Positions 3,477 to 63,397 of a DNA stretch of 64,000 nt are shown one piece after another. The stretch is from a virus, in IMG/VR virus record IMGVR_UViG_3300050343_000256, positions 20,979 to 84,978 of that record, one strand, 5' to 3'. Each line of letters opens with the position of its first letter. Position 1 is the stretch's first letter. The translations under genes and the position numbers were made by a program. Below the pieces are notes generated by a model that was given only the letters and a program-made list of their open reading frames with translations, was not told where the DNA came from and did not search any database.

Positions 3477-5995
3477 GTGACATGTCACTCATTTTGTATG
3501 CCAGACCAAAGTTGTATCGTCGAATACAGTATTCATAGCACCTGCTACCAGAAACGTCATAAGAAAAGTGATTTTTCGGACTCTTGGTCCCGTGATTGGC
3601 AACCAAAGGAAACCCCTTTAGAGGAACTCAGGGACTGGGTTGGATCTGGTATGGCTTTCATTGGTGCTCGAATGTCCTCACACCATAGGTCCAGCAGTGC
3701 GTTTGAGTGCAGCGATCTTGCAGTTGTTGATATCGACCACGGCTTGTCGATCAAAGAGTTTCTCGAACACCCACTAGCTGCAAGTGCGGCCTGGTCATAT
3801 ACACGAGCTCTCGCCATGGCCAAATGCCGGAAGATCGATTTCGAGTCGTGTTCAGACTGCCGCAGCGAATCCACGATCCTGAAATCTATAAGGGTGTCGT
3901 CACCCTTTTGATCAGGTCACTCGGCAGTGATAAGAGCTGTTCTGACCCCTGCCGCATCTTCTATGGCAGCGATCCAACAGAGCATATTTTGTGGCAGCCA
4001 GAGGCTCAACTACCTGATTCAATTCTTGACGCTGCGGAAGATCATGCTCGGAAAATGGCAGCGCGAGCAGCTGTCTCTACAAACACGATTGATCAGCAAT
4101 CAATCGACCAAGCCGTCTTCGTTCTCGAGCAAGTCCTCGAGCCGACTGTTGATGGAGACCGAGACAGATTCCGATGCATCACCGCATCAGCAGCAACTGC
4201 TGGCTCAGCACTGTTTCCGGCCTGGAGCGACTGGGCGAGCAGAGGGCATCACGGCAAAGGAAAGAATGCAAAACAATCAACTGAGAAATTCTTCAGAGGA
4301 TTCCGTGGTTCAGGCCTCGGAACTCTGTTTTTCTGGGCATCAAAAGAGGACCCTGACTGGAGATCCAGGCTCCCTGCAGAGCTTCGACGATCCAGTGAAA
4401 GCTCTTCCCAATGCTTTGGGTCGGCACTTGGTTATGACCACAGCGATTTCATTGGAGATCCTGATGATGATTTCTTCTATGAGGGACCAACTCCCAACAC
4501 CGGAACCACTCAAGGTCTCTTTGACGCCGAGCGCCCATGGACCCAAGTGGCAGTCATTGAAAGACCGCCGGTAGAAGCACCGCCTATCAACACGAGTGAT
4601 TCAGATGACGACGATGGAGGCGATGGTTTCGGGGGTGATAACGAACCGCCTACAGAAGAAGGAGTTCCTCGAGTTCGAGCTGGTCGGGGCAGACCTCGCG
4701 GAGATGGTGAGGTTCAAGTTGTCGTCGATATCAAAACGAGACTGCAGCGCCTCTATCCAGGCTTGCGAATGAACTCCATGTCTCAAGACTTGGAATATGG
4801 ATCAGTCGAGAAACCAATCAAAGTTGACGACGCATCAACCGCTTATGTCCGCATCAGCAATGGGGCGGGGCAAGTATTCCCAAAGACGCTTACTTATGAC
4901 ACCGCTTTAATTGTCGGCAGAGAAAATGCCTATCACCCAGTTACCGCCTACCTAGAGAAGTGTGCCCTTAAAGGAGAGACCTGCGGCTATTTCGATCGGA
5001 TCGCATCGGAGCTACTCGGACTCAGGGGCGACGAGCTCACTAATCCAACGATGCCCTGCGGGAATCTGCTCGCCGATGTGATCATGAAACGCTTTCTGGT
5101 GGGAGCCGTTGCTCGAGTCTTGGAACCAGGCTGCACTCATGACTGGATGCCGATTCTCATTGGCTCTCAGAACTCAGGCAAGACAACATTTTTCCAATAC
5201 CTCACTCCTCCTGCTCCTGACTCACCGGGTTCCCACCCTTGGGTAAGCACTGTGCAGCAAGGGATCAATCTCCTGAAGGACCGGCCTCACATCCTCCACG
5301 CAGGCTGGTTGGTTGTTATGGATGAATGCGAGCGCTATTTCCGGCGTCAGTACACCGAGGAGCTCAAAAACATCGTCTCAATCGGAGTCGATCGCAGCGC
5401 AAGAAAATACGAGAACGAACGCAACTTCCTCCGCTCCTTTGTCCTAGCTGGTGCAACGAACTCAACCGATTTCCTGGTCGATCCAACCGGTAATCGCAGG
5501 TTCATGCCAATCGTCGTTGACGGCAAAGTTCCCAGCAAGGAAAACCCCAACATCCGCATCATTGACCTGGACCGTCTCAAAGAAGACCGGGACAAGATCT
5601 GGACGTCTGCGTATCAGGCCTATTTAGATAAACCGGTCCATACCTTCAGCAGCTATGAGCTGTCGTTCATGAAGGAGTATATGGAAACGTTCCAGTCAGA
5701 TAGTCCTCTGGAGTACCAGCTTGACCTAGTTATGACGACCAAGCACTCGGGTGAGCATGGCTCCGACCAAAGGAAGCAGCGGTACTGGCTGATGGCTGAT
5801 CTCTTTGAATGGCTCGAGATCCCTCTCAAAGAGGAACGGTCCATGGCTCGACACATCTCAGACGCCTTGAAGAAGAAGGGATTCACAAAGCGCCGTGTCA
5901 AGGTGCGGGGCAAGGTTCTCAATATGTGGCTGACAAGCGATCCGCTTTACAACGAGAGCCTTGGATCCGCTGCTCCGATGTCTCGAAACTGGTAA
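3477..5995 (+). CDS. AEP primase-VapE/D5-type helicase, apparent -1 frameshift
   Basis: The replication primase-helicase, split over two frames. The first frame (3477 or ATG 3498 to about 3800) carries the AEP primase DxD motif (VVDIDHG). A -1 shift near 3800-3803 restores the expected S-x-H region and DRFRVVF, which continues in the frame ending at 5995. The second part (from Met at 3824) has SCSDPCRIFYGS, an acidic linker (about residues 259-290 of that part), Walker A GSQNSGKTT (447-455) and the VapE-type block VVMDECERYF...AGATNSTDF...GNRRF. No slippery heptamer is seen at the junction, so an indel or sequencing error is as likely as recoding. Without the shift the primase active site is divided. 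A strong terminator follows. Confidence 0.85.
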
Positions 5996-6550
5996 TATGA
6001 GACTGTTGTGAGACGGGACTCATCTGAGACTCATGCCATTCCCTTGCTGGGAGTGGCTTTTTTATTTAGGGGCTGATCCAATCACCTGCTGGTTTGCTAT
6101 CAAGACACCGCTTAATCGCTGTTCACGATATGAGTCTCATCAGGTGACACTAGGTGCCATGCTCCTACAACCTTTCTCCAGGAAAATAAATTCAAATCAC
6201 CCTTCTTTTCTTGCTGTCTTCCCTCTAGCGAATAGCTTTCATTTCGCTAGACTCATCACACGATTGGAAGCGGTTTCTTGGTTGTCCGTATAAACCAAGA
6301 GGGAAAGGAATTACCTGGAGAAAGGTGGGAGGCACGCGACACCGCATGTCACCTGAAAGGAACCCAGTCATATCAACGGATCTGCGGTGACATGCCAAAC
6401 GGGCAGGTTACAAGATCTGCAAAGGAGGGCAAACGCATTGCAGCGCAACGAGTTACGGCGAACTGCATTTGACAAAATGACAACTAAAACCAAAACAGCT
6501 TGCAAAACGCCTGACATCTTTTACTATTCCGGCACCAGCGAAGAGCATCC
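5996..6550. other. Repeat-rich non-coding block, candidate origin/operator region
   Basis: 555 bases with no credible gene directly after the primase-helicase. TGAGAC boxes occur at 5998, 6009 and 6025 (the last as TGAGACTCAT), and as the near-palindrome ATGAGTCTCAT at 6130-6140. GGTGACA occurs at 6143 and 6386, with its inverse TGTCACC at 6347. Hairpins: CTAGCGAA/TTCGCTAG (6225-6250), TCTTGGTT/AACCAAGA (6276-6300) and GCATGTCACC/GGTGACATGC (6344-6395). Iteron-like repeats next to a replication gene suggest an origin or a regulator-binding site; this is inference. Confidence 0.45.
6035..6066 (+). terminator. Rho-independent terminator after primase-helicase
   Basis: A stem GCCATTCCC / GGGAGTGGC (6035-6043 and 6049-6057, one wobble) with a 5-nt loop is followed by TTTTTTATTT. 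It lies 40 nt beyond the primase-helicase stop, on the correct strand. Confidence 0.85.
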
Positions 6551-42076: not shown

Positions 42077-43472
42077 TCAATAAACGAAGGAATAAGCAAT
42101 GGTGATGAAGTCGCGGTTAAGCACTTCAAAACCAGCAAACAGCGACCAGATCATGATGATGAATCGTGAGAAATCATCATTGTTGTTCAACAAGATCTGA
42201 GCGTTGTTACCACCAATGCCAACGCCGACTGCCTGAGGACCGAAGAAAATCATCGGAGCAGCAGTGGTCACCGTGTTGGTGATCGATGCGTCGTTAACAG
42301 TTACTTGCAGAGATTTCTCAGCAAGGTTGGTGGATTCAAACCAGCGAACTCCCTCAAATAGGAATCCCGTAGGCATGATTGGCTGTCCAGCCACGAAACC
42401 AGCCTGTCCGTAAGCGGGACCCATGCCATAGAAGAAGTTGGCATTAGGAGCCTGCTCAGGTTGCAGGGGGTTGACCATGCCATTACCCGCGTAGCGAGCA
42501 ATTTCACGGAAGGCGTCATTCTGCAGTGTTGTTATCCCAGAAGCTCTTTATCTCCTGGTTCTCAATCTTTGTCATCGATTGAGCTCAGACTATATCTTCA
42601 TCCCTGTGGGATGGAGGGCACTCGTGGATCCATTACTGAGTTTCCTCTCGGGATCTAGTCGTTGAACCTTCCAGATTGTGATCTGGCTTGGCTGCTGATT
42701 CCCCGAATGTGTGAAGGGGTCCCAGCAATTCACCCTCTGTTCACCCGGCTGTTACCAACCGAGGGCGCAAGAATCGTTTACGCAGGTGCATCATTGCAGT
42801 TGGATCTGCAATGCAACGGTAATAACCATCAGCAAAGGTTGGGACGTTGCGCTTCCGCATGTCCTTAACAACCTGCAGCAAGTCTGTCTTTACGTCAAAC
42901 TTGGCTGATTCACCGGCTGCGTAGTTAAGGAACGGAGCGGCGGATGCCTTGGTTTTGCCGAGTGGGTAGTAATAACCACCAGCATTATCGCTAGCAGGAC
43001 CAGCAGCTTCTGCTTTGAAAAGTTCGTCAGCAAAAACGCGATCACGCCAACGGCGGTAATCGTCCAACAGTGTCAGTGAACCGATTGACTGGTGGAAGAC
43101 GTTCAGGTTGCCGGTATCAAGCAGCAAGCGCTGAGCGGTGAGCAGAGTTTCACGAGCAACCTTAAAGGTCGAAGGTGAAGTTGCATCGGTAGGGTCTGCA
43201 GGTCCGGTGTATTCCTTGAGGTTCACCAGAACCTTGTCTTTAACAATAGAGCGGCTAGATGCTGTGCCCAAAGTTTGATCAGCAGTGCGCTCACGGGAAT
43301 CCTTGTTACCAGGATTGCCCCAGAAGCGGTAGCGATCAAGTTGGACAGTCTGACCGGGTTGCTTCGCGAAATCGTGAACAACCACAGGCTCTACGGCCAT
43401 CTCGATGATATAACCGGGATGTGGGCGGTAGAGCTCAGCACCTAGCAGCTTAGGGAACGTGTATATCCACTG
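42077..43472 (-). CDS. Major capsid protein, split by group I intron(s)
   Basis: Two exons are visible: 43472-42780 (231 codons, from QWIYTFPKLLGAELYRPHPGYII to DPTAMMHLR) and 42523-42077 (from QNDAFREIARYAGNGM to AYSFVY and stop). They join in phase after removal of a 256-nt intron, giving HLR-QND. The residues RYRFWGNPG, GSLTLLDDYRRWRDR and IWSLFAGFEV are typical of a cyanophage coat protein. The first exon (roughly the N-terminal 30-40 residues) should lie upstream of a second intron, and I could not find it. Expected total is about 410 aa. Confidence 0.8.
42524..42779 (-). ncRNA. Group I intron 1 in the capsid gene
   Basis: 256 nt on the minus strand with no ORF. The 5' splice follows a U (CTGCGT, then AAACGATT), and the internal guide GCGC pairs with GCGU including the U:G. 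P/Q elements (GAATTGCTGGGA and AATCAGCAGCCAAGCC), R (GTTCAACGACTAGA) and S (AAGATATAGTC) are all present. The intron ends in G directly before CAG. Removing it restores an open reading frame, the strongest support. Confidence 0.85.
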
Positions 43473-43769
43473 CTTTCGCAGGGCACCGACTATATCTTCA
43501 CCTTTAAAAGGGCTGGACGCTTAATCCTGTTATTAAGGAGACTTTACTCCTCAGGTAGTCTGTGAACGTTCCTTAGGTGTACCCAAGGCTTCGCTGCTGA
43601 TTGCCATATCTTTCGACTTAGGGTTCCAGCAATTCATCCAGTTTTACAACGACCAGGTGTTTTACCAATCGTTATCAATCCACATGGATCGAAATTCCTC
43701 AGCTGTAAGGGTTTATAAGCACATCGTTGTGCTTCTTATTACTATAAGGGTGTTCTATAGGGAGCAAAT
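43473..43769 (-). ncRNA. Group I intron 2 (3' part) before capsid exon 2
   Basis: On the minus strand, GAATTGCTGGAACCC, AATCAGCAGCGAAGCC, GTTCACAGACTACC and AAGATATAGTC are the same P/Q/R/S elements as in intron 1, with different peripheral sequence. It ends in G at 43473 before CAG, again at a G|CAG junction. The 5' splice site and first exon were not located; the region up to 44958 or beyond may belong to it. AAGCACA/TGTGCTT (about 43717-43734) may be part of a peripheral stem. Confidence 0.75.
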
Positions 43770-44477
43770 TTGGACGTAGTTGATGTCCGTGGATTACTTG
43801 GTCTTCTTTTAACCGATGGGAGTCTTGTCCCATATCGCACTCCTGGCGGTGGTTATATTCAGTTGACTCTTACAACAGGGATCAAGCAGTCGACATTTCT
43901 CGAGGAGAAGGTTGCAGAATTTAAGCAATTTCTACCTTCAAAAGCTGTAATTACTCCCTACAGGAGTTCTCCTAGGGCTAACGGCAAGCAGACGTTGGTT
44001 CTAAGGTTTCGAGTTTCGACCGACAAGCTCCGCCCTGTGTACAACTTGCTTTATCCATGTGGAGAGCGATTAATCAATCAGACGGCTCTCGACTTGTTAG
44101 GAGCAAGCGCTGCAGCATGGTGCTGGGCGCAAGGCGCTCGAGTTCACAAAGACATGAGCTCTGAGCTATCCCGCGTTGGCAATACATACGTAGAAGGCGC
44201 ACGACTGCAAGCATGGTTCGAGATGTTGACCGGCGCAGAGTCAGATCTCAGAGATCACAGGCAGAAGCCACGTCTATATTTCAAGCCGGGAGAGACCAAG
44301 AAGGTGCAAGACGCACTAATAAATTATGCGCCATCAAGTCGACTACATCTATTTACCGGAGTAACCCCAGATGTCAGCTCAATTCGTAGCTCGCGCACTG
44401 AGTTATTGCATGGGAGTGGGATCGATATCTTTAAAAGGGAGACGGCAAAGGCCTTGGCTTCAGATCGTAAGGAGTGA
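43770..44477 (+). CDS. LAGLIDADG-like homing endonuclease, copy 1
   Basis: 235 residues from TTG 43770, with GGGAG 5 nt upstream. First motif LLGLLLTDG (residues 9-17) keeps the catalytic Asp16; the second, AAAWCWAQG (about 114-122), has Gln in that position. The spacing (about 105 residues between motifs) and the end, RLYFKPGETKKVQDALINYAPSSRL, fit two-motif LAGLIDADG enzymes. The gene is opposite in strand to the capsid gene and intron, which is unusual for an intron homing gene. It overlaps copy 2 by 107 nt. Confidence 0.65.
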   Translation: MDVVDVRGLLGLLLTDGSLVPYRTPGGGYIQLTLTTGIKQSTFLEEKVAEFKQFLPSKAVITPYRSSPRANGKQTLVLRFRVSTDKLRPVYNLLYPCGERLINQTALDLLGASAAAWCWAQGARVHKDMSSELSRVGNTYVEGARLQAWFEMLTGAESDLRDHRQKPRLYFKPGETKKVQDALINYAPSSRLHLFTGVTPDVSSIRSSRTELLHGSGIDIFKRETAKALASDRKE

Positions 44478-44958
44478 GACAGAGCGTCCCTACTTAAGTC
44501 ATCAGCTAAAACAGCTGCGAGAAGCTCACTTAGGTGCGCTGGAATTTGACCTGGACGTACTTCCTTGCGACGGCTTTTACGATGACGTTCGCCTGCGAGT
44601 CAGGAGTGACGAGCTATACCGAGCCTATGAATTGATGTACCCACGAGACAAGAAAGTGGTAACGCCTCAAATTGTCGGATTAACCGGAATCGTAGGGATG
44701 TCAGCGCTGTGGTCAGACAGAGGCAGGATCGTCGGTAAAACAGCAAAGATCAGATCACGACTAACGCCAGAAGCGAACATAGCTTTGGTCGATTGGTGCA
44801 ATAGCCACGGCTTCGAGAGCAAACACATCGCAAGACTGGACCGCAGCTACGGAGTCCAGTTCACTCCAGACGCAACTCGGAAATTTATTAGCGCCATACG
44901 GCCACACACGCACAAGATCATGAGAAAGACTTTTAAACAGGCTTCTTCTCGTCGATAA
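44371..44958 (+). CDS. LAGLIDADG-like homing endonuclease, copy 2
   Basis: 195 residues from ATG 44371. First motif ALSYCMGVG (9-17) has Val16 instead of Asp; second motif, in GMSALWSDRG (about 109-118), keeps Asp116. Both copies share a middle LLYP/LMYP segment before the second motif, so they are tandem paralogues. The C-terminus (VDWCNSHGFESKHIARLDRS..VQFTPDATRKFI) is like the LAGLIDADG C-terminal domain. The acidic residues lost in the two copies are complementary. Confidence 0.6.
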   Translation: MSAQFVARALSYCMGVGSISLKGRRQRPWLQIVRSETERPYLSHQLKQLREAHLGALEFDLDVLPCDGFYDDVRLRVRSDELYRAYELMYPRDKKVVTPQIVGLTGIVGMSALWSDRGRIVGKTAKIRSRLTPEANIALVDWCNSHGFESKHIARLDRSYGVQFTPDATRKFISAIRPHTHKIMRKTFKQASSRR

Positions 44959-60474: not shown

Positions 60475-60860
60475 GCTGTTTTCTCGGATCCTGGAGGTGG
60501 AGGAGGTGCTCCGTCCATCGGAGGACCAAAGGGACTAAATGGTCCACTAGCAAACAAGTTGGCCCATTGACCTAGCTGTGCCTTGGATTCAGTGTCATCA
60601 CCATTGGCGATGCCACCGAAATCACCATTAAGAAAACGCACTATTCCTTCACCTCCAGCAAACCTGGGATTCAACTTATCGCTTGCTTTCTGTTGAGGGG
60701 ACCCGAATTCGTATCCGAAAGCAGTGCCATTCTGCTCACCCTTCATCCCCTTAGCTTTAATAGCAGCATCAAGCTGCGAACCTAAAGCCTCTGGTCCACG
60801 CTCCGTAAGCTTAAAGCCAGGAGTGGAATTATTCCAGGTATATGGTCTGCTGGCTGCCAC
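60471..60860 (-). CDS. Hypothetical Pro/Gly-rich virion-operon protein
   Basis: 129 residues, low complexity, C-terminus GPFSPFGPPMDGAPPPPPGSEK. Helical segment AALGSQ..AAIKAKGM. Overlaps the downstream gene by 4 nt. No domain recognised. Confidence 0.55.
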   Translation of the reverse strand: MAASRPYTWNNSTPGFKLTERGPEALGSQLDAAIKAKGMKGEQNGTAFGYEFGSPQQKASDKLNPRFAGGEGIVRFLNGDFGGIANGDDTESKAQLGQWANLFASGPFSPFGPPMDGAPPPPPGSEKTA

Positions 60861-60886
60861 TCAGTAAGCCGCTATGTCTACTAATC

Positions 60887-61036
60887 TTAGCTATTTTTCT
60901 TTTTCTTACCTTTAGCTTTACTCTTGAAATGCTCAAGTAGTTCTTCAGGCATCTTGCCTTTTTCACTCTTGGACTTGTTGCCACCCTTTTGGAACTTGTT
61001 GGCCTTATCTTTGGCCTTTGACTTGTCGGAATTCAT
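60887..61036 (-). CDS. 49-residue Lys-rich protein
   Basis: ATG overlaps the upstream stop (ATGA). MNSDKSKAKDKANKFQKGGNK, then EELLEHFKSKAKGKKKKNS. Very basic; probably nucleic-acid binding or packaged with DNA. Too short for standard gene finding but positioned like a real gene in the late operon. Confidence 0.55.
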   Translation of the reverse strand: MNSDKSKAKDKANKFQKGGNKSKSEKGKMPEELLEHFKSKAKGKKKKNS

Positions 61037-61935
61037 CGCACAAGATTTCTCAGAGATTGCTTAATTTTATCGATCTTTGTTCTAGCGAAATTATCAGGGG
61101 CACTCGGCGCATTTAGAGGTGAATCATTTGCCTGCGCATTATCGTTAGCCATTTGGGCTATTCGTGCAACCTGACGACGTGTCGCGAAGTCCACAGGTAT
61201 GTCTTCTGCAGCTCTTCCTCCGCCCATCGCTGCATCTACCTCGGCTTGGCTGGCTACGGATTCGAGTCCTCGGAACATAGCTCGAGTTTTACTCATTTTC
61301 GCAGAAGACGGTTCGCTATCGCTACCCGCAAAGGCTTCTGCGTAATCGACAAAGCTCTTAGGGTTTGCACCAGGCACGTCCCGATATTTTTGACGCAGCC
61401 TTTGGACTTCAGGGTTAACTCCCGTAGCCTTTCTAAGATCAACGATGACATCATTCACATCGCTGACGTCACCTTTACGAATCAGCTCAGCAACGTCTTT
61501 CTCAATATCTTGCGGAGGCAAAGACCGACCAGCGCTTAAAGCTGAGATTATGTCATAAGTGGGATTTCTTTCGGGATCTTGTACGCCCTTCCCGCCCTTG
61601 AAAAGTTCACCGTCAATGTACTGATCGAGCAACGCATTTTGCATCCGATTCACAAGAGGATCCTGCAGCGGATTATTAACTGCCGCAACATAGTCAGCAG
61701 CTTGCCTGGCTGGCCCGTAAACAACATCACCCTTTTTGTTCATAGGCTCTTTGGCAAAGACACGATTCTCTGGATCTGATGCAGGGACGACTGCGCTGAT
61801 TAGATCATTAAGCTCTCGCATGCCCTCATCGGTGATTTCACCTTTGCCCATCCTTATTTCGACAAGTCCTTGTTCGGCGAATCCTTTTGGCTGATTTTTT
61901 AGTGCGGTGATCGGCTGATTGGATTCGCGCCCCAT
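61033..61935 (-). CDS. C-terminal part of a large internal virion protein (frameshifted)
   Basis: 300 residues if read alone from an ATG at 61935, but the sequence looks like the continuation of the upstream ORF. After ADG, the frame of 61838-63397 turns Arg/Lys-rich and unlike a folded protein, while this frame reads ...RESNQPITALKNQPKGFAEQGLVEIR. The two meet at a run of four G (about 61931-61934), where a +1 shift would fuse them into about 800 residues. Domain unknown; helical, charged. Confidence 0.6.
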   Translation of the reverse strand: MGRESNQPITALKNQPKGFAEQGLVEIRMGKGEITDEGMRELNDLISAVVPASDPENRVFAKEPMNKKGDVVYGPARQAADYVAAVNNPLQDPLVNRMQNALLDQYIDGELFKGGKGVQDPERNPTYDIISALSAGRSLPPQDIEKDVAELIRKGDVSDVNDVIVDLRKATGVNPEVQRLRQKYRDVPGANPKSFVDYAEAFAGSDSEPSSAKMSKTRAMFRGLESVASQAEVDAAMGGGRAAEDIPVDFATRRQVARIAQMANDNAQANDSPLNAPSAPDNFARTKIDKIKQSLRNLVR

Positions 61936-63397
61936 CAGCAGTCAGCAACTTGTAATAAGGCCGTCCAGTCGTTTCACTAATTTTTTCTACAACGTCAATA
62001 CCAATCCGATAAGTGCGAATGGGGGTACGATTTCGCATGGCGATGTCTTGGACAGCCTCCCCCAACGTCATGTTCTGTCCAATCCTTATAGATGCTGGGT
62101 CAGAGCCTGCTGCGAAGCCAGGTACCTCACTGCCGCTTTCCCCTATGCCTGCGCCGTAGTAAGGCTGACGTTCGCCGGTCGGCACATTCATATTTTTTCC
62201 GGCACGTTCACTATCTGCAGACTGCTGTCTAGCTTCGCGATTAAAGATGTAACCGAGGCGTGAGTCGAGTTCTACGCTGGGATCGAGCATTGCAACCATC
62301 ATGTTGCGCGTGTCGTACTGCTTTTTATTGAAACCGGTAGCTGCACTTTTTTCCCCAGGCACAGTCGTCGAAGTTGGCTGATATACAAAGTCGCCAGCTT
62401 GATCACGCATAAACTTGAACCCAAGACTTTTGCCGCCTCTTCGCGCTTGATCCGCAGGGGCTATCAGCACTGGAACCCTGTAACCTTCGTCAACTTTGAC
62501 ATTGACAGGTTCTTTATCAAGTGGATTACGTCTACTTTGCCTGGGAATACTTCTATTACGGCCAGACTCTGCGTTTAAATCTTGGGACTGTTTCCCAGAG
62601 ATCTGATCAAATGGCTCAGACTTGTTCATAAATGCACGAACTTCAGCCTTGCCTCGTTCGTCAAGTGCCATGACAGTGGCAGCCATCTCAGCCGGAGACA
62701 TAGTTCCGGCGTCACGCTTGACTAAAGCGCTGAGCAGCTCCTGATCGCTCGTTGAAATATCAGCAGTACCGGCGTCTGAGCTGCCTTGAGCCGCTTTTTC
62801 GTTTGCAATGGCGTTAAATAGCGCCAATTCGGGCCTTAATTCGCTCATCTGGCCGATTTTATCGACCGTTTCTTGCGAAATTCGCCGATTTACATCTCTC
62901 GGATAGCGTCTTGTGGTCGGTGACCCCGCACGAAACTCGGCAGTAGCAATTTTCAATGCTCCCATTGGCCCAATTTCAGGCATCACCGCTGCTAATTCAG
63001 CTGCTCTTGATGTCACTCTGACATCTAACTCGCCTTTTCCGTAAGCATCACTAAAGAATCTGCGAGCAACTTCTGGATCTTCAGATGTGATCGAATCTTC
63101 CATTCGCATCTGATCAATCTCAGCCGTGATCAGGCGCTCTTTTTCAGCACGTTTACCAGCGTCGGATCGGCGACCACGCGGCACTGCTTCAATTGATACT
63201 CCTTTTTCAGGGCTGTAATAAACAAGTTTGCCGTCAACCGTCCTAGCAATTTCACGATCGTCTGTAGGAAGACCAGCAATCTCAGCAGATTGAGGGACGC
63301 CGCCTAAGTTACGCCGGGGGTCGTAAGGATCACCTAAGTCGCGAAATCCGCCAATACCTACAACCATTACCGCCAAGTCTTGCACTTCGTAAGACAA
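61838..63397 (-). CDS. Large internal virion protein, N-terminal part
   Basis: 519 residues. First gene of the leftward late operon. Mixed helical and charged (ERLITAEIDQMRMEDS, RDVNRRISQETVDKIGQM), then low-complexity Arg/Ser stretch and YYGAGIGESGSEVPGF. After ADG near residue 489 the frame runs into R/K-rich sequence and stops. Likely joined to the next ORF by a +1 frameshift at GGGG. No domain recognised; probably an internal protein. Confidence 0.65.
   Translation of the reverse strand: MSYEVQDLAVMVVGIGGFRDLGDPYDPRRNLGGVPQSAEIAGLPTDDREIARTVDGKLVYYSPEKGVSIEAVPRGRRSDAGKRAEKERLITAEIDQMRMEDSITSEDPEVARRFFSDAYGKGELDVRVTSRAAELAAVMPEIGPMGALKIATAEFRAGSPTTRRYPRDVNRRISQETVDKIGQMSELRPELALFNAIANEKAAQGSSDAGTADISTSDQELLSALVKRDAGTMSPAEMAATVMALDERGKAEVRAFMNKSEPFDQISGKQSQDLNAESGRNRSIPRQSRRNPLDKEPVNVKVDEGYRVPVLIAPADQARRGGKSLGFKFMRDQAGDFVYQPTSTTVPGEKSAATGFNKKQYDTRNMMVAMLDPSVELDSRLGYIFNREARQQSADSERAGKNMNVPTGERQPYYGAGIGESGSEVPGFAAGSDPASIRIGQNMTLGEAVQDIAMRNRTPIRTYRIGIDVVEKISETTGRPYYKLLTADGARIQSADHRTKKSAKRIRRTRTCRNKDGQR

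Follow-up and report, generated by a model that had tools for sequence, protein, structure and literature searches.

Two overlapping LAGLIDADG paralogs, one of active type and one probably without catalytic acids, upstream of the capsid gene of S-EIV1-like cyanophages

Two tandem LAGLIDADG-like genes adjoin an intron-containing capsid gene (MCP) in the window, the 64,000-nt stretch of viral DNA analysed here. A first-pass annotation described them as a duplicated pair with complementary lost active sites, antisense to the introns. The locus raises the question of whether the two proteins complement each other in DNA cleavage, and what the pair is kept for.

The window is part of an 84,978-bp IMG/VR virus record. 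Its MCP showed 76% identity to the capsid protein of Synechococcus phage S-EIV1, the sole match in the phage-record collection, and the virus is an S-EIV1-like cyanophage. The MCP gene is on the minus strand and is interrupted by two group I introns (RF00028), the junctions of which were placed by hand using intronless relatives. A scan of the whole 84,978-bp record gave no further group I intron beyond these two. The gene is composed as follows.

43668..43685, minus strand: MCP exon 1 (MWIDND, six codons), from comparison with intronless relatives
43458..43667, minus strand: group I intron 1 of MCP, 210 nt, no ORF (RF00028, 86.2 bits; junctions from intronless relatives)
42780..43457, minus strand: MCP exon 2, from comparison with intronless relatives
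42524..42779, minus strand: group I intron 2 of MCP, 256 nt, no ORF (RF00028, 66.8 bits; junctions from intronless relatives)
42077..42523, minus strand: MCP exon 3, from comparison with intronless relatives

In the S-EIV1 entry (KJ410740.1), most of the capsid gene is annotated on the wrong strand, as a hypothetical protein, and the correct frame is given only for the C-terminal part (annotations 60784-61545 and 60859-62010, equal to L089:4851-5612 and 4926-6077).

The pair begins 84 bp upstream of the MCP start codon (43685) and is transcribed away from MCP. It is located upstream of exon 1 and outside both introns. The genes are indeed on the strand opposite to the coat gene, as annotated, but they are intergenic and antisense neither to the introns nor to MCP. 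The elements of the pair are listed below.

43757..43764, plus strand: ATAGGGAG, conserved element 5' of the ORF1 TTG start (weak ribosome-binding site)
43770..44477, plus strand: ORF1, 235 aa, LAGLIDADG_2 (PF03161) protein, TTG start (Pfam match, AF2 model)
43815-43817, plus strand: codon of ORF1 Asp16
44130-44132, plus strand: codon of ORF1 Gln121 (Glu in most relatives)
44358..44361, plus strand: GGAG, likely ribosome-binding site of ORF2, within ORF1 (from the sequence; GGAG-like site in most relatives)
44371..44477, plus strand: overlap of ORF1 and ORF2, 107 nt, different frames
44371..44958, plus strand: ORF2, 195 aa, ATG start, ORF1 paralog in which the catalytic acids are probably replaced
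44416-44418, plus strand: codon of ORF2 Val16
44716-44718, plus strand: codon of ORF2 Asp116
44719-44721, plus strand: codon of ORF2 Arg117

The overlap is present in all relatives, with a length of 47-161 nt. A programmed frameshift joining the two frames was considered and rejected: ORF2 has its own ATG in 96/96 loci and the GGAG-like site in most. In the window (43686-43769) and at the corresponding place in relatives, the MCP 5' leader contains a hairpin, the stem sequence of which varies between relatives. A role of this hairpin as an operator specific to the pair was also rejected, as a similar one is found 5' of MCP in the clade that carries an HNH gene instead (see below).

Both genes are real members of a known fold class. 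ORF1 matches PF03161 (E 6.4e-9; 36.4 bits, above the curated cut-off of 25). ORF2 of the window has no match in Pfam, and that of one relative scored 16.7 bits against PF03161, which is under the cut-off of 25. The two proteins are homologous to each other. The duplication had been proposed from the middle segment, where BLASTP gave an E value of 7e-6; profile-profile comparison extended it to 167 columns, nearly the whole length (E 1.8e-14), which is beyond chance. The AF2 models of ORF1 (pLDDT 82) and ORF2 (pLDDT 94) have I-WcaI and I-SceI as their best fold matches (ORF1 with both, E 5e-9 to 5e-8; ORF2 with I-WcaI, E 2.4e-8), and WhiA and the bI3 maturase are also among the matches. According to these models, each ORF alone is a complete I-SceI-type two-domain LAGLIDADG protein. 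Sequence searches with the pair found no relative in the phage-record collection and none in the PDB. The genome collection gave four matches, all in metagenome-assembled bins; these appear to be phage contigs that were binned wrongly.

Viral contigs were searched with ORF1, ORF2, and MCP, which gave 96 nonredundant loci with both ORFs. Only four loci had one ORF, each cut by a contig end; in other words, all 96 nonredundant relatives with enough contig have both. The distance between the two starts is 601 nt in 86 loci, 604 nt in nine, and 598 nt in one, and the frame relation is constant. Across the 96 loci, ORF1 starts with TTG (92) or GTG (3), and ORF2 with ATG in all. The median dN/dS values outside the overlap are 0.058 for ORF1 and 0.051 for ORF2. 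Both ORFs are under purifying selection and the pair is not decaying. Since the two paralogs are kept together under this constraint, a joint function is plausible, including that of a heteromer.

The catalytic residues were examined in 91 complete pairs. The motifs of the window had been read correctly as letters: TDG then AQG in ORF1, and GVG then SDRG in ORF2. Asp16 of ORF1 is invariant (91/91). Position 121 of ORF1 is Glu in 84 of the 91, Asp in one, and Gln in six, and the six Gln121 members, which include the window, form a single clade in both trees (support of 0.997 and 0.992). Glu121 is likely to be a catalytic residue: the alignment to intact homologs leaves a one-residue uncertainty on it, and its A-E-G context fits the usual ending of the LAGLIDADG motif, as in Glu117 of I-DmoI. 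ORF1 of the window, with Gln in place of this Glu, is probably impaired, that is, reduced to a nickase or a binder.

In ORF2, the first acid is absent from 90 of the 91 members. Position 16 is Lys in 53, Val in 16, Arg in seven, other residues in the remainder, and Asp once. Asp116 is invariant (91/91), and it is followed by Gln (41), Arg (24), or others including Lys and Thr, never by Asp or Glu. Intact LAGLIDADG proteins (PF03161) encoded in MCP introns of two relatives, L230 and L225, are homologous to both ORFs. In a gapless alignment, their GDG corresponds to G(K/V)G of ORF2, and their WxDDG corresponds to WxD(Q/R)G. On this reading, the Asp of SDRG is the first, structural Asp of DDG, and the second acid of ORF2 is probably gone as well. 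From this alignment, it seems quite probable that ORF2 is fully dead, both catalytic acids having been lost. Two observations are contrary to such an assignment of Asp116. The profile alignment of ORF1 and ORF2 pairs this residue with residue 121 of ORF1, and in the AF2 models both residues are two positions before the next strand. In any case, the active sites do not appear to have been lost in a complementary manner. The Gln of ORF1 is a change of one clade, whereas ORF2 most likely lacks both acids family-wide; the Asp of its second motif, which had been regarded as active, aligns with a non-catalytic Asp, with some alignment doubt. Whether the losses are fixed in relatives had been left to phylogeny: the loss of the first acid of ORF2 is shared by 90 of the 91 members, but the Gln of ORF1 is confined to one clade.

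The surroundings of the pair were compared among relatives. Among the best 80 MCP matches, S-EIV1, and the window, those with at least 700 nt upstream of MCP were compared. The slot upstream of MCP is occupied by the pair in 45 cases and by a NUMOD4-HNH_3 ORF in 23; one, S-EIV1, has neither. The carriers of the NUMOD4-HNH ORF, which is in the same divergent position, are the sister MCP clade. In its own MCP clade, the pair is present throughout, not sporadically, and the two kinds of genes are mutually exclusive in the long (66-85 kb) records examined. Nuclease genes in and beside MCP of relatives include the following.

L066:3780-4478 (-) and L072:4111-4626 (-): NUMOD4-HNH_3 ORF in the slot, as examples from the L057-L088 loci
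L225:2359-3174 (-) and L230:2132-2839 (-): sense-strand, intron-encoded LAGLIDADG_2 with intact GDG/DDG, within MCP introns
L225:506-1360 (+) and L218:1239-2267 (+): LAGLIDADG_3 genes within MCP introns, antisense to both intron and capsid gene

The NUMOD4-HNH ORFs are 118-130 aa long with a weak HNH part in most of the intronless loci looked at, and 169-232 aa long in three intron-bearing loci. The introns holding the opposite-strand LAGLIDADG_3 genes are large (at nt 849 in L225 and at nt 872 in L218).

The MCP of this phage group is a hotspot of group I introns, which are inserted at 12 or more sites, with as many as four in a single gene (e.g. L124, L225, L192, and L230). The junctions are at approximately nt 12, 18, 51, 107/108, 111, 144, 321, 397, 414, 645, 696, 849, and 872, positions that come partly from an automatic search that misplaced some, those of the window's introns among them. 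Introns were found in three of six long records scanned, and, judged by position, all seven matches fell within MCP or next to it. L002 and L095 have an intron 1 identical to that of the window. An intron at the same site in L072 shows 97% identity to intron 1 of the window (183/188), which suggests that intron 1 moved horizontally in recent time. In the L072 record, the slot is filled by the HNH gene, and the search for an ORF1 relative found none; intron 1 thus appears to move without this pair, and presumably splices without it. Intron-bearing MCP genes were found in four of six Gln-clade loci and in 23 of 79 others, but this apparent enrichment was set aside, with a Fisher p value of 0.08 and loci that are not phylogenetically independent.

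The pair lies where a conserved head block gives way to a divergent tail block. Phage nucleases at such block borders have been described in other phages (PMC10448857). Distances for ORF1, ORF2, MCP, and the flanking genes show correlations that are modest in most cases (0.27-0.59) and reach 0.85 for two tail genes; they do not discriminate between vertical and horizontal inheritance. An early comparison suggested that the pair is a sharply bounded mobile island. This idea was dropped after longer profiles and all-pairs statistics, in which the tail-gene side diverges too and loci with similar flanks have similar cassettes. No coconversion tract spanning the pair was found, and the divergence of the pair is similar to that of the adjoining tail genes.

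Taken together, the pair might be a freestanding homing-endonuclease cassette composed of an active-type enzyme and a conserved dead DNA-binding paralog, a reading adopted here tentatively, at somewhat less than even probability. A slot shared with an unrelated homing nuclease, an intron-rich MCP, and homologous intron enzymes make an MCP-aimed homing cassette the most economical explanation of ORF1. The cassette would be placed divergently upstream of the capsid gene. ORF1 would be an I-SceI-type LAGLIDADG monomer that uses, in most relatives, the invariant Asp and the Glu as its two catalytic acids, and most likely cuts MCP of co-infecting phages without the cassette. Repair after the cut would spread the cassette and the adjoining capsid allele, together with any intron in that allele. 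ORF2 would be a duplicate without catalytic acids, retained as a partner that binds DNA, be it to regulate, to shield the site of its own phage, or to serve as a subunit. Its fixed pairing, its constraint, and the lost acids suggest that a non-cutting DNA-binding paralog is needed. Translation of ORF2 seems to start at an ATG of its own within ORF1, behind a ribosome-binding site of its own. By comparison, ORF1 has a weak but conserved TTG/GTG start, which suggests that the dead protein is probably in excess. In the clade of the window, where Glu is changed to Gln, the pair would nick or merely bind. Clade-wide fixation and the absent coconversion tract count against simple selfish homing, and universal presence in the MCP clade is unlike a mobile gene still spreading. 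A more specific form, possible but doubtful, is a two-component homing system, in which an obligate overlapping dead paralog in excess serves as an immunity or control factor for an active LAGLIDADG enzyme. In this proposal, the dead paralog would either restrain the enzyme or sit on the capsid site of its own phage, and the system would be kept clade-wide as it would enable the phage to destroy the capsid genes of co-infecting competitors.

Other explanations were compared with the homing cassette. ORF1 and ORF2 might act on one site as a heteromer or as paired nickases, each cutting one strand, most clearly in the Gln clade with Asp16 of ORF1 and Asp116 of ORF2. The obligate pairing, the overlap, and the conservation of both ORFs agree with this, as do the invariance of Asp116 and its placement at residue 121 of ORF1 by profile alignment and AF2 secondary structure. 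However, the intact intron-encoded homologs make Asp116 the first, non-catalytic Asp of DDG, ORF1 has both acids in 84 of the 91 relatives so that a complement is unneeded, and each ORF alone is predicted to form a complete two-domain fold; such cooperation is considered unlikely. It is likewise rather improbable that the pair has been domesticated, like WhiA, as regulators of transcription or capsid expression without present homing activity. Such a role would account for the clade-wide fixation, the low dN/dS without decay, the dead ORF2, WhiA among the fold matches, and the position between divergent promoters, but not for the invariant catalytic Asp of ORF1 with Glu in 84 of 91, nor for the homing-type HNH nuclease in the same slot of the sister clade.

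LAGLIDADG proteins that lack nuclease activity can function as maturases, and ORF2 or the pair might aid splicing of the MCP group I introns. The bI3 maturase among the fold matches and the intron-rich MCP point in this direction. Nevertheless, pair-bearing loci mostly have an intronless MCP (56 of 79 scorable loci outside the Gln clade), and the same intron 1 is present in L072, where an ORF1 relative was not found; a maturase is thus very improbable. Finally, the lack of catalytic residues in ORF2 and the altered ORF1 of the window might be taken as signs of chance ORFs or decaying relics. The annotation had named inactivity and decay of both proteins in relatives as grounds for doubt, and neither a truncated nor a decayed copy of either ORF was seen among the 96 loci. 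The dN/dS values are about 0.05, those of ORF1 remain 0.03-0.07 inside the Gln clade of the window (synonymous sites of ORF2 are mostly saturated there), and the folds are confident. The probability of this explanation is negligible.

Homing nuclease genes are expected to come, go, and decay. Here, a nuclease-type gene and its nuclease-dead twin have been kept jointly in about 100 phage loci, at the same spot and under strong constraint. Retention of the "dead" copy suggests that ORF2 has its own job. Were the dead twin to serve in protection or control, a homing nuclease would have a built-in antidote here, and we know of no description of such a role. Furthermore, the group I introns inserted in MCP form a dense natural series, and unrelated nuclease types fill one slot. 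With these, it can be tested directly how freestanding and collaborative homing arose. In the open literature, no description was found of this pair or of the MCP intron hotspot.

The fold of the pair is known, and its layout is similar to that of known collaborative homing; what is unusual is that an active-type protein is obligately combined with a dead paralog. The monomeric LAGLIDADG enzymes I-SceI and I-WcaI (PF03161) share with it the family match of ORF1, the best fold of both ORFs, and the two-domain monomer with two LAGLIDADG helices. Unlike them, the pair is not intron-encoded and its genes are tandem and overlapping; ORF2 seems to lack the catalytic acids, and the second site of ORF1 is Glu (Gln in the window). 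The enzymes of L230 and L225 are homologous to both ORFs, belong to the same Pfam family, and would share the target gene, MCP, but they are single, lie on the intron sense strand, and have intact GDG and DDG. The dead LAGLIDADG proteins, namely the WhiA regulators and the bI3 maturase, likewise keep the fold without a normal nuclease site. ORF2 differs in that it has no extra HTH domain of the WhiA kind, is not intron-encoded, and always accompanies an active-type paralog. An intron endonuclease has been documented to cause interference between co-infecting phages (PMC11620839). In collaborative homing, F-CphI is encoded beside psbA of cyanophage S-PM2 (PMC6083498). Both cases have a freestanding endonuclease gene adjoining a gene with ORF-less group I introns in a cyanophage. 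The enzyme there is of Endo VII type, whereas a LAGLIDADG protein and its paralog are found here, and intron 1 is also present in the L072 record, where no pair was found. Collaborative homing of the F-CphI type is the closest known arrangement.
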